Assembly (NCBI RefSeq): GCF_000802385.1
Contig: NZ_JTDN01000001.1
Location: forward strand, 937,501 to 1,001,500
Direction of reading: 5' to 3'
Source of the DNA: Croceibacterium mercuriale
GTDB taxonomy: Bacteria; Pseudomonadota; Alphaproteobacteria; Sphingomonadales; Sphingomonadaceae
Length of the DNA stretch: 64,000 nt
Shown: positions 42,912-46,915 of the stretch, one piece after another
Numbering within the stretch: position 1 is the stretch's first letter
How the letters are laid out: each line of letters opens with the position of its first letter
Position numbers and translations under genes: made by a program
The notes under the pieces: model-generated
The model's input: the letters and a program-made list of their open reading frames with translations, nothing else
Database searches by the model: none
Told to the model about the DNA's origin: nothing

Positions 42912-44195
42912 ATGACCTCTCGCGAACTGACCAGCCTGCGATCCCTTGCTCCGGTCCCGGGCGACGATGCACCCGCAACGCAGCTGAGCGATCGGCTGCA
43001 TCGCCTGTTCTACGGCGCAATCGGCTGGCCGTTCCTCGCGTTCAGCCTGTGGGGCGGGACGCGGGCCAGCAAGCGGCACCTGCTGGCGCGGATCGGCCTG
43101 AAGGAAGATGCGCTGCCGCATCTGGGCAGCTGGAAGGCGGATACGGGATTCCTGCACCGGATCGTGGACGCAGTCGAATTGCTGCGGCCGACCACCGTGG
43201 TGGAGCTGGGCTGCGGTGCATCCAGCCTCGTCACGGCGCGCGCCTTGGAGCTGAACGGCGGCGGGCGACTGGTCAGTTACGACCAGCATGGCGATTTCGT
43301 CGCCGCGACGCAGAGCTGGCTGCAGGAGGAAGGCGTCGCTGCCAGCATCCGCCACGCGCCGTTGCAGCCGGAGGCAAGCGGCGACTGGCCCGGCAGCTGG
43401 TATGCCCTGCACGATGTTCCCGAAAGCATCGATCTGCTGATCATCGACGGTCCGCCCTGGACCGTGCATCCCTTCGTGCGTGGCGCGGCCGACCAGCTGT
43501 TCGGCCGGCTGCGGCCCGGCGGCATGGTGCTGCTGGATGATGCGGCCCGCCCGGGCGAACGCGTCGTAGCGCGGCGCTGGCGACGGCGCTGGCCCGAAAT
43601 CCGGTTCGAACGCGTCGGCGGCAGCACCGCAGGCACGCTGGCCGGTCGCAAGAGCGCGGATGTGATCCCGCTGCCCCGGCGGGAGATCGCCATGGTCGCA
43701 GGCGCCCGGCGCATCGGCTTTGCCGCGGCGCTGCTGCTGGGCGGATGGCTGCTGCATGACGCGGCGGAAAGCGTGGCGCCGGCGGCGCAGGCTGCGACCT
43801 TCGTTGACGATGCAGCCGCGTCCTATCGCGCCAGCCTGGCCCGGCATGCGATGGCCTCGCAACCGGAAAGCACGCAGCTGGACCGGGCCGAACTGGGCCG
43901 CGTCACCGGGCTGAACCTGCCGGTCATCCCGGCCGGCTGGCAGGTGCTGGACGTGCAGGTCTATCCGGCAAAAAGCGGCATGGCCGTCGCCACGGTGCTG
44001 CGGACGGACCAGGCGGAGACGGTGGCGCTGTTCGCGGCCCGTGCGGAAACACCTGCGGAGCAGCTGCCGATGCTCGACCAGCGGGACGCGCAGTCGGTGG
44101 CATATTGGGAGAAAGGCCCGGTCGCCTTCGCGCTGACGGGCGAACTGCCCGCCGCCCGGATCCGCAACCTGTCCGCACGCCTGGCCGGCAGCTGA
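42912..44195 (+). CDS. Methyltransferase fused to an anti-sigma-factor-like membrane/periplasmic domain
   Basis: This is a 427-residue protein of two unrelated parts. Residues about 60-245 are a class I SAM methyltransferase: motif I VVELGCGASS (96-105), acidic VSYDQHGD, and IDLLIIDGPPW. A hydrophobic segment (32-48) precedes it. A single membrane helix lies at about 267-281. Residues 296-424 resemble the periplasmic part of sphingomonad anti-sigma factors: DRAELGRVTGLNLPVIP, GWQVLDVQVYPA, then AYWEKGPVAFALTG. The zinc-binding anti-sigma N-terminus normally found there is missing. AAGGA lies 6 bases before the ATG. No sigma factor gene is adjacent. A methyltransferase replacing the sigma-binding domain would be a new architecture; function is unknown. 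Confidence 0.8.
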   Translation: MTSRELTSLRSLAPVPGDDAPATQLSDRLHRLFYGAIGWPFLAFSLWGGTRASKRHLLARIGLKEDALPHLGSWKADTGFLHRIVDAVELLRPTTVVELGCGASSLVTARALELNGGGRLVSYDQHGDFVAATQSWLQEEGVAASIRHAPLQPEASGDWPGSWYALHDVPESIDLLIIDGPPWTVHPFVRGAADQLFGRLRPGGMVLLDDAARPGERVVARRWRRRWPEIRFERVGGSTAGTLAGRKSADVIPLPRREIAMVAGARRIGFAAALLLGGWLLHDAAESVAPAAQAATFVDDAAASYRASLARHAMASQPESTQLDRAELGRVTGLNLPVIPAGWQVLDVQVYPAKSGMAVATVLRTDQAETVALFAARAETPAEQLPMLDQRDAQSVAYWEKGPVAFALTGELPAARIRNLSARLAGS

Positions 44196-44295: not shown

Positions 44296-45210
44296 GTGCG
44301 AACAGGCGACAGGACAGATCGGCGCGGCGCATTGCGGTTGGGTGCAGGGGCGGTAGCCCTGGGGGCGCTCGCCGGTTGCGGGCAGGCGCAGGATGCCGGC
44401 TTCACGGTGGTCACCACCTTCACCATCATTGCTGACATGGCCCGCAACGTGGCCGGCAATGCCGCAACGGTGTTGTCGATCACCAAGCCAGGGGCCGAGA
44501 TCCACAATTACCAGCCGACCCCCGGCGACATGGTCAGCGCACGCGGCGCCGACCTGATCCTGTGGAACGGGCTGGGGCTGGAACAATGGTTCGAACGGTT
44601 CCTGGACAATATGGGCGATGTACCCTCCGCCGTGGTGTCGGACGGCGTGACGCCGATCGGCGTCGGCTCCGGGCCCTACAGCGGACGGCCCAATCCGCAT
44701 GCCTGGATGTCGCCAACAGCCGCGCAGGTCTATGTCGGCAATATCGCCGCCGCGCTTGCCCGGCATGATCCGGTCAATGCCGCCACCTATGCCGCCAATG
44801 CGACCGCCTACAAGCAGCAGATCGAGCAGACGATCGCCCCGATCCGCGAGCGGCTGTCCGCGATCCCGCCGCAACGGCGCTGGCTGGTCAGCAGCGAGGG
44901 CGCATTCAGCTATCTGGCGCGCGATTTCGGCCTGCGGGAGCTGTATCTGTGGCCGATCAACGCCGACCAGCAGGGCACGCCGCAGCAGGTGCGCAGCGTG
45001 ATCGATCAGGTGCGCCAGCACCGCATCCCGGCCGTGTTCAGCGAGAGCACGATCTCGCCAGATCCGGCGCAGCAGGTCGCGCGGGAGACCGGCGCCCGCT
45101 ATGGCGGGGTGCTGTTCGTCGACTCCCTGAGCGAAGCGGATGGCCCGGTGCCGACCTATCTGGAACTGCTGCGCATCACGACGGGCCGCATCGCGGAGGG
45201 CCTGGCCTGA
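44296..45210 (+). CDS. Mn/Fe ABC transporter substrate-binding lipoprotein
   Basis: This 304-residue cluster-A-I binding protein captures divalent metal for the ABC permease. The N-terminus carries Arg-Arg and a lipobox ALAGC (Cys28). The four metal ligands align with PsaA/SitA: His70 (EIHNYQP), His135 (NPHAWMSP), Glu201 (SSEGAFSYL) and Asp276 (FVDSLS). Glu at the third site, instead of His, favours manganese or iron over zinc. The GTG at 44296 has the perfect ribosome site AAGGAGG. It is the first gene of a four-gene operon and may be controlled by the MntR-like box just upstream. Confidence 0.92.
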   Translation: MRTGDRTDRRGALRLGAGAVALGALAGCGQAQDAGFTVVTTFTIIADMARNVAGNAATVLSITKPGAEIHNYQPTPGDMVSARGADLILWNGLGLEQWFERFLDNMGDVPSAVVSDGVTPIGVGSGPYSGRPNPHAWMSPTAAQVYVGNIAAALARHDPVNAATYAANATAYKQQIEQTIAPIRERLSAIPPQRRWLVSSEGAFSYLARDFGLRELYLWPINADQQGTPQQVRSVIDQVRQHRIPAVFSESTISPDPAQQVARETGARYGGVLFVDSLSEADGPVPTYLELLRITTGRIAEGLA

Positions 45211-46046
45211 TGGACGGAGCGGAGGGCGGTTCCGGCCTGGACATCCGCCATGCCACGGTCACCTACCGCAACGGCCACACGGCGTTGTCCGACGCATCCT
45301 TCTCCATTCCCACCGGCACCATCGCCGCGTTGGTCGGCATCAATGGCAGCGGCAAGTCGACCCTGTTCAAGGCGATCATGGGCTTCGTGCCGGTGCGCGG
45401 CGGCTCCGTGTCCGTGCTAGGCCGGCCCGTGCGGCAGGCTTTGCGCGAGCAGCTGGTCGCCTATGTGCCGCAGAGCGAGGACGTCGACTGGAACTTCCCC
45501 GTGCTGGTGCGCGATGTGGCGATGATGGGGCGCTATGGCCGCATGGGGTTCCTGCGCCGGCCCCGCGCCACCGATCGGGCGGCGGTGGCGGACGCGCTGG
45601 AACGGGTCGGCATGACCGCCTTTGCCGACCGGCAGATCGGTGAACTGTCCGGCGGCCAGAAGAAGCGCGTGTTCCTGGCCCGCGCGCTGGCGCAGAACGG
45701 GCGCGTCATCCTGCTGGACGAGCCGTTCACCGGGGTCGACGTGACCACGGAAGAGTCCATCATCGCCCTGCTGCGCACCTTGCGGGACGAGGGGCGGGTG
45801 ATGCTGGTGTCCACCCACAATCTCGGCAGCGTGCCGCTGTTCTGCGACCGCACGGTGCTGCTGGACCGGACGGTGCTGGCCGCCGGGCCGACGGCGGAGG
45901 TGTTCACCGAAGCCAATCTGCGCCGCGCCTTCGGCGGCGGGCTGCGCAGCCACGCGCTGCCGACCGAGGCGGGGCAGGGCACCACGACCCTGCTGTTCGA
46001 CGACGAGCATCCGTTCATTCTCCACGACCGGAACGGCGACGCATGA
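45210..46046 (+). CDS. Metal ABC transporter ATP-binding protein
   Basis: This 278-residue ATPase powers the Mn/Fe importer. Walker A is GINGSGKST (residues 43-51), the signature is ELSGGQKKRVFLARAL and Walker B is VILLDEPFTGVD. The Q-loop YVPQSEDVDWNFPV resembles that of SitB/YfeB. Its ATG overlaps the binding-protein stop (TGATG) and its stop overlaps the first permease gene (ATGA). Confidence 0.93.
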   Translation: MDGAEGGSGLDIRHATVTYRNGHTALSDASFSIPTGTIAALVGINGSGKSTLFKAIMGFVPVRGGSVSVLGRPVRQALREQLVAYVPQSEDVDWNFPVLVRDVAMMGRYGRMGFLRRPRATDRAAVADALERVGMTAFADRQIGELSGGQKKRVFLARALAQNGRVILLDEPFTGVDVTTEESIIALLRTLRDEGRVMLVSTHNLGSVPLFCDRTVLLDRTVLAAGPTAEVFTEANLRRAFGGGLRSHALPTEAGQGTTTLLFDDEHPFILHDRNGDA

Positions 46047-46915
46047 ACCTGGGCGCGCTGCTGGGCGAGCCGTTCGGCTATGGCTACATGGTCAACGCCA
46101 TCTGGGTCAGCGCCCTGGTTGGCGCGGTCTGCGCCTTCCTGTCGGCCTATCTGATGCTGAAGGGCTGGTCGCTGATCGGCGATGCGCTGTCGCACTCGAT
46201 CGTGCCGGGGGTGGCGGGCGCCTACATGCTGGGCCTGCCGTTCGCCTTCGGTGCATTCCTGTCCGGCGGACTGGCGGCGGCGGCCATGCTGGTGCTGAAC
46301 CGGCGTACCCGGCTGCGCGAAGATGCGATCATCGGGCTGATCTTCACCTCCTTCTTCGGTCTGGGCCTGTTCATGGTGTCGATCTCGCCCACGTCCGTGA
46401 ACGTGCAGACCATCGTGCTGGGCAACATCCTGGCGGTAACCGCCGCCGACACGCTGCAGCTGGCGATCATCGCTGGCGTGTCGCTGGCCATCCTGCTGGC
46501 CAAGTGGAAGGACCTGATGCTCGCCTTCTTCGACGAGAACCATGCCCGTGCGGTGGGGTTGAACCCTGCCGCGCTGAAGATCCTGTTCTTTGCCCTGCTG
46601 GCTGCCTGCACCGTGGCGGCGCTGCAGACCGTCGGCGCACTGCTGGTGATCGCGCTGGTGGTGACGCCAGGGGCTACTGCCTACCTGCTGTCGGACAACT
46701 TCCCGCGCCTGATCGCCATCAGCACCGCGATCGGCACCTGCACCAGCGCTGCCGGCGCCTATCTCAGCTATTTCCTGGATGGCGCCACCGGCGGGGTCAT
46801 CGTGCTGTTGCAGACCGCGGTGTTCCTCCTGGCATTCGTGTTCGCGCCCAAGCACGGTGTGCTGGCGGCGCGGCGACGGGCGCGACCGGTCGTCACGGCG
46901 GCGGCGGAGCGGTGA
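46043..46915 (+). CDS. Metal ABC transporter permease 1
   Basis: This 290-residue inner-membrane protein has about eight hydrophobic segments of the ABC-3 family (YLMLKGWSLIGDALSHSIVPG is the hallmark region near residue 40). It forms the channel together with the second permease. The start overlaps the ATPase stop and the stop overlaps the next gene. It resembles SitC. Confidence 0.92.
   Translation: MNLGALLGEPFGYGYMVNAIWVSALVGAVCAFLSAYLMLKGWSLIGDALSHSIVPGVAGAYMLGLPFAFGAFLSGGLAAAAMLVLNRRTRLREDAIIGLIFTSFFGLGLFMVSISPTSVNVQTIVLGNILAVTAADTLQLAIIAGVSLAILLAKWKDLMLAFFDENHARAVGLNPAALKILFFALLAACTVAALQTVGALLVIALVVTPGATAYLLSDNFPRLIAISTAIGTCTSAAGAYLSYFLDGATGGVIVLLQTAVFLLAFVFAPKHGVLAARRRARPVVTAAAER

Follow-up and report, generated by a model that had tools for sequence, protein, structure and literature searches.

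A methyltransferase joined to a membrane and periplasmic module of anti-sigma factor type in Croceibacterium mercuriale and other sphingomonads

The fusion gene, its enzyme domain and its neighbours

The window, the whole stretch of 64,000 nucleotides analysed from Croceibacterium mercuriale (contig NZ_JTDN01000001.1, positions 937,501 to 1,001,500), contains at 42912-44195 on the forward strand a single uninterrupted frame of 427 amino acids. It starts with ATG and has AAAGGA 5' of the start. The start assignment is backed by the peptide T2-S3-R4, which is invariant across 21 fusion sequences. Residues 1-250 (42912..43661, +) represent a class I SAM methyltransferase domain. A short basic linker follows (residues 251-267, 43662..43712, +), too small for an anti-sigma domain and without match to the anti-sigma profile. 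A single transmembrane helix is predicted at approx. residues 268-282 (43713..43757, +) from a hydropathy peak; basic residues lie on its N-terminal side, and R267, G278 and W279 are conserved in the fusions. The periplasmic domain (approx. residues 290-427, 43779..44192, +) is homologous to membrane-bound anti-sigma factors. The membrane helix and the periplasmic domain, together residues ~256-427, form the C-terminal module. The architecture would suit a one-component transmembrane signalling protein, with input and output on a single membrane-spanning chain and a topology predicted from hydropathy and charge. Met261 as internal start of a separate secreted protein was rejected, because it is not kept in the aligned relatives.

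The enzyme is assigned by profile to the Methyltransf_24 family. A Pfam scan matched PF13578 over residues 97-210 (E=2e-10, 41.9 bits against a cut-off of 26.3), in agreement with a preliminary description that had read one continuous frame with a class I methyltransferase. Motif I, VVELGCGASS, occupies residues 96-105 and keeps the SAM-binding pattern E/DxGxGxS with E98, G100 and G102. These three residues, D124, D179-G180-P181-P182-W183 and D209-D210 are invariant in 21 fusions. Judged by these residues, the enzyme motifs are intact. A full-length AF2 model was reliable for part of the methyltransferase only. Its core (pLDDT about 50-86 over residues 51-240) matched COMT-type enzymes with an E of about 1e-6, in a moderate model from 2 sequences. 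The core resembles COMT-type O-methyltransferases with a Rossmann-like methyltransferase fold.

Stand-alone Methyltransf_24 proteins of sphingomonads have the whole enzyme domain in common with the fusion (about 50-66% identity, same motifs) but are without linker, helix and periplasmic module. They are widespread and frequently lie downstream of serA-hisZ-purA. A stable site after serC/serA-hisZ-purA was seen in about 12 genomes of several genera (L099-L118). Since the enzyme exists without the module, the latter is not needed for catalysis.

The fusion gene in the window is flanked by nadE, cinA and a hydrolase gene on one side and by an ABC metal-uptake operon on the other. This operon of three genes (44296-46915) encodes a ZnuA-type binding protein (PF01297, E=3e-83), an ATPase and a permease. 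A functional link between the fusion and the downstream operon was rejected, as synteny is lost outside the nearest relative. Glycan-related neighbours were found neither in the window nor in most other genera. In genus g98, exosortase-A polysaccharide genes lie no more than about 10 kb away from the methyltransferase gene in five genomes, and in four of these the fusion gene stands immediately before an MsbA-related ABC exporter. The neighbours include an exosortase-A glycosyltransferase (TIGR04063, E=1e-194) and an O-glycosylation ligase (TIGR03097, E=1e-60), families scanned in L095 only. G201 harbors a GT4 glycosyltransferase and a GH130 enzyme close to the fusion. The gene context supports in part a role in surface glycan modification.

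The module and the parent sigma pathway

Pfam and NCBIfam scans gave no match in the C-terminal half of the fusion, and the NCBIfam scan of the fusion protein yielded nothing significant. The C-terminal half alone matched anti-sigma factors of 250-300 amino acids in the first set of relatives (E=5e-25 to 2e-16). It contains the motifs DRAELGRVTG (324-333), GWQVLDVQVYP (342-352) and AYWEKGPVAFALTG (397-410), in which the preliminary description had seen an anti-sigma pattern; that reading is now backed by a computed similarity. Anti-sigma-type proteins matched a module profile down to E=5.9e-68, with the profile partly built from those proteins. The same profile, built in part from sequences later scored with it, was also used to find further fusions. 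The matched proteins comprise an N-terminal domain 'EIxAYVDGELDxxRRxxVExHLA', one helix and the module, in this order. Their N-terminal domain is zf-HC2-like, at or under the Pfam cut-off, and showed no zinc motif in the members read. An ECF sigma gene adjoins the anti-sigma relative on the same strand at 48 of 49 loci, the exception being L146. It encodes ~175 residues; the one sigma protein scanned has Sigma70 regions 2 and 4. Independent records annotate relatives of the module as 'anti-sigma factor', and in those from Phyllobacterium, Rhizobium etli and Rhodobacter the two genes of the pair are labelled sigma-70 family sigma factor and anti-sigma factor. By homology, sigma-gene context and annotation, the module is identified as the membrane and periplasmic half of an anti-sigma factor. 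The literature yielded no wet-lab studies of these particular anti-sigma proteins. A PDB profile search with the module gave no match, and an AF2 model of residues 292-427 (pLDDT 43, from the window's sequence and one relative) was not used.

Membrane-bound class I anti-sigma factors of alphaproteobacteria, encoded beside an ECF sigma gene (NCBIfam PRK12511-like), share the helix and the whole periplasmic domain with the fusion. The methyltransferase fusions keep 22 of the 25 columns conserved in anti-sigma factors. Unlike these proteins, the fusion has a methyltransferase for the sigma-binding domain, no sigma gene and no GGAATAA-N14-16-CGTA. None of the fusions was significantly matched by an anti-sigma-domain profile (best E 0.023, 6 bits). 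A nearby sigma gene was found neither in the window nor at one of the 28 enzyme-fusion loci. Of a membrane-bound anti-sigma factor, the fusion has the helix and a periplasmic domain of the same class. It does not count as an anti-sigma factor, because the two defining features tested, the sigma-binding domain and an adjacent ECF sigma gene, are both absent. An enzyme takes the place of the sigma-binding domain ahead of the helix and the periplasmic part. The preliminary description was right about both absences; its term zinc-finger for the missing domain is a loose one. Conserved features specific to the fusions are AETPAE (378-383), a GW in the helix and E400, a position occupied mostly by R in anti-sigma factors. 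The retained columns together with these features argue for a functioning periplasmic domain with an altered surface and against a bare anchor.

The cognate sigma factor occurs in four of the 25 enzyme-fusion genomes (G201, G365, G355 and G344; 51-100% identity to the query), and a separate anti-sigma factor is present in the same four. The best sigma identity in the other fusion genomes is <=43%, mostly the 34-38% typical of other ECF factors. The window's genome contains neither the cognate sigma factor nor a separate anti-sigma factor. GGAATA-N-CGTA or CGTC was detected upstream of the sigma gene in 23 of 39 loci, compared with 2.4% in shuffled sequence. The motif is compatible with an autoregulated ECF promoter. 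The sigma-type promoter GGAATAA-N14-16-CGTA was not found before fusion genes, and ECF sigma control of these genes was rejected for this reason.

The gene after the anti-sigma pair encodes a GMC oxidoreductase in many sphingomonads and a Bax inhibitor-1/YccA protein in Rhizobium, Phyllobacterium and Rhodobacter. G201 and G365, both of a single genus, have the ECF motif before an unlinked GMC oxidoreductase gene (L165:3386, L166:221); in other genomes, this gene directly follows the anti-sigma gene. Both placements suggest the GMC oxidoreductase as a target of this sigma factor. In one clade, the gene immediately ahead of the sigma gene encodes a GT4 glycosyltransferase (L169:202-2006, L076:1411-2658), and in G355 the ECF motif precedes the GT4 gene. 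The GT4 placement would link the parent sigma system with glycan synthesis. Three genomes of a single genus also have GGAATAA-N15-CGTA upstream of pal, the gene of the peptidoglycan-associated lipoprotein (L162:241, L163:3190, L164:230). It may be there by chance plus kinship, since whole-genome pattern counts were not above the control.

The ECF26 anti-sigma factors EcfR1, EcfR3, EcfR4 and EcfR6 of S. meliloti consist of an anti-sigma domain, one helix and a periplasmic domain (PMC6180224). This is the plan of the module's anti-sigma parents, and the promoter consensus, GGAATA/GT, is related (PMC6180224). For EcfR6, a stretch of pSymA with an rpoE6-like sigma gene contained a related anti-sigma domain and no detectable copy of the module. 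The known sulfite signalling of RpoE1/RpoE4 is therefore not transferable to the fusion. Within a given anti-sigma group, the sensor domains are reportedly well conserved (PMC7406223). The class I anti-sigma survey in question took anti-sigma domains near sigma genes as its starting point (PMC7406223), an approach that would miss the fusions described here. No description of a module-enzyme fusion was found in the open-licence literature of PubMed Central.

Distribution and history of the enzyme fusions

The methyltransferase fusion was found in 21 species-level genomes of eight genera (g1, g9, g15, g54, g59, g64, g86 and g98), with 53-85% identity and no internal stops. The counts stem from evenly drawn genome samples, not from all genomes, and gene calls in the relatives were made mechanically by script. 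Five of 60 relatives carry the full-length fusion. Within the family, it was present in 19 of 398 genomes, the copy of G327 being split over contig ends; G530 and G579 are two more fusion genomes. G406 has two copies (L087, L088). A plasmid of Croceicoccus marinus also encodes the fusion (56% identity), and a contig scan with the single fusion protein detected one locus in Croceibacterium ferulae (L139). The possibility that the fusion reflects a frameshift, an assembly error or chance similarity is negligible. No evidence in its favour was found, and the same stop-free frame recurs in 20 further genomes and the plasmid record at 53-85% identity, which excludes the single-genome artefact that the preliminary description had named as a refutation. 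Purifying selection acts on both halves of the fusion, with omega values (NG86, seven methyltransferase-fusion pairs) of 0.09-0.16 in the enzyme and of 0.10-0.27 in the module.

Three other types of enzyme are attached to homologous C-terminal modules, likewise without a sigma gene. An FkbM methyltransferase was found in three genomes (L071, L077, L121; PF05050, E=2e-9 to 4e-13), and a sulfotransferase gene precedes one of these FkbM fusions. A sulfotransferase is itself fused to the module in one genome (L120; PF00685, Sulfotransfer_1, E=4e-22). A CDP-glycerol glycerophosphotransferase-like domain (Glyphos_transf-like) is fused to the module in three genomes (L059-L061). PF04464 matched one of these three with E=0.004 and 16.6 bits, which is under the cut-off, and by sequence the N-terminal domain has no solved relative that convinces; the name glycerophosphotransferase is a weak one. 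The N-terminal enzymes of these fusions differ from Methyltransf_24 in being unrelated or distantly related to it, and the FkbM fusions are of separate origin.

A tree of 73 modules groups the Methyltransf_24, glycerophosphotransferase-like and sulfotransferase fusions in one clade (96/88). A separate clade (100/98), placed on the anti-sigma side, unites the FkbM fusions. Within the first clade, the sulfotransferase fusion branches from among the methyltransferase fusions (99/87), which indicates a swap of the partner. The tree calls for a minimum of two departures from anti-sigma factors; in the simplest history there were two, with a later exchange of enzymes. The methyltransferase domains appear to agree with a single origin of the Methyltransf_24 fusion and later module loss in two lineages, with some branches weak. 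Remnants of the module were not found behind the nested stand-alone methyltransferases of G122 and G198. A module in G183 (L153:2544-3419) follows a proline-rich stretch, without recognisable anti-sigma domain, enzyme or sigma gene, and branches beside the enzyme fusions. It could represent another partner or a broken gene. L153, having neither anti-sigma domain nor sigma gene, and L158, a partial match in a peptidase, were set aside as unclear or chance cases.

Proposed function

An envelope-coupled, membrane-anchored methyltransferase is the most likely reading of the fusion, with a probability of about one half. The module most likely ties the cytosolic transferase to the membrane and connects it with the envelope, either through a signal or through docking. 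The enzyme would face the cytosol, where SAM is available and on which side basic residues flank the helix; the module would lie in the periplasm. There, it may act on the enzyme as it does on the anti-sigma domain, reporting the envelope state or binding an envelope partner, and so may switch or position the attached cytosolic domain. The substrate may be a surface glycan or lipid precursor located near the membrane, since all four partners are typical decorators of surface polymers by methyl, sulfo or glycerophosphate transfer. All four enzyme types are common in surface glycan and lipid modification. The envelope-coupled reading is favoured by the repeated recruitment of the module by four transferase types in at least two departures. 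It gains further from the anti-sigma homology with its sigma adjacency, the conservation, the purifying selection, the retained anti-sigma columns, the intact enzyme motifs and the exosortase-A, exporter and sulfotransferase neighbours at some loci. It is weakened by the lack of glycan neighbours in the window and most genera, by the existence of the stand-alone enzyme and by the apparent loss of the module in two lineages.

The main rival is a docking function, possible but with clearly smaller odds: the module would bind an envelope complex, e.g. a glycan export or assembly machine, and bring the transferase to its substrate without any switching. All partners are transferases that might act on polymers or precursors crossing the membrane, the fusions of one genus adjoin an exporter and exosortase-A polysaccharide genes, and the fusion-specific AETPAE and E400 could make a new binding face. 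However, the neighbours vary by genus, so that no common partner complex is visible, and the ancestral role of the module was the regulation of a sigma factor. Control of a cytosolic methylation by an envelope signal, as the preliminary description had proposed, may apply, and the evidence fits docking as well.

Rather unlikely, and more so than docking, is a module that merely tethers the enzyme to the membrane with a leftover periplasmic part. One helix would be enough for a tether, the stand-alone enzyme is widespread, and of the two halves the module is the faster-evolving one (omega up to 0.27). Yet a periplasmic domain of 130 residues is under purifying selection and has retained its anti-sigma-conserved columns over eight genera, and four enzymes took up the same domain although any helix would do. 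Competition or pairing of the fusion with the anti-sigma factor for a signal, tuning the sigma pathway as a decoy or by cross-talk, is very improbable. It would suit the four genomes that possess both the fusion and the cognate pair, but 21 of the 25 fusion genomes, the window's included, are without the cognate sigma or anti-sigma factor, and fusion genes lack the pathway's promoter motif in front of them.

Beyond the envelope-coupled reading of the single protein, a wider view is offered tentatively. A portable envelope-sensing module may have left sigma control repeatedly and may now directly switch surface-polymer enzymes, as a post-translational branch replacing transcriptional control of envelope stress where the sigma factor was lost. 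The history outlined above would mean that one anti-sigma sensor-type domain moved to metabolic enzymes at least twice and then changed partners at least once. The set of four enzyme fusions is informative in two directions, as traits shared by the enzymes point to the substrate and traits shared by the modules to the signal. The findings suggest that, in a group of sphingomonads, one envelope module has passed from gene regulation to the service of enzymes. Should this module still sense, it would allow a direct, transcription-free adjustment of surface chemistry to the state of the envelope.
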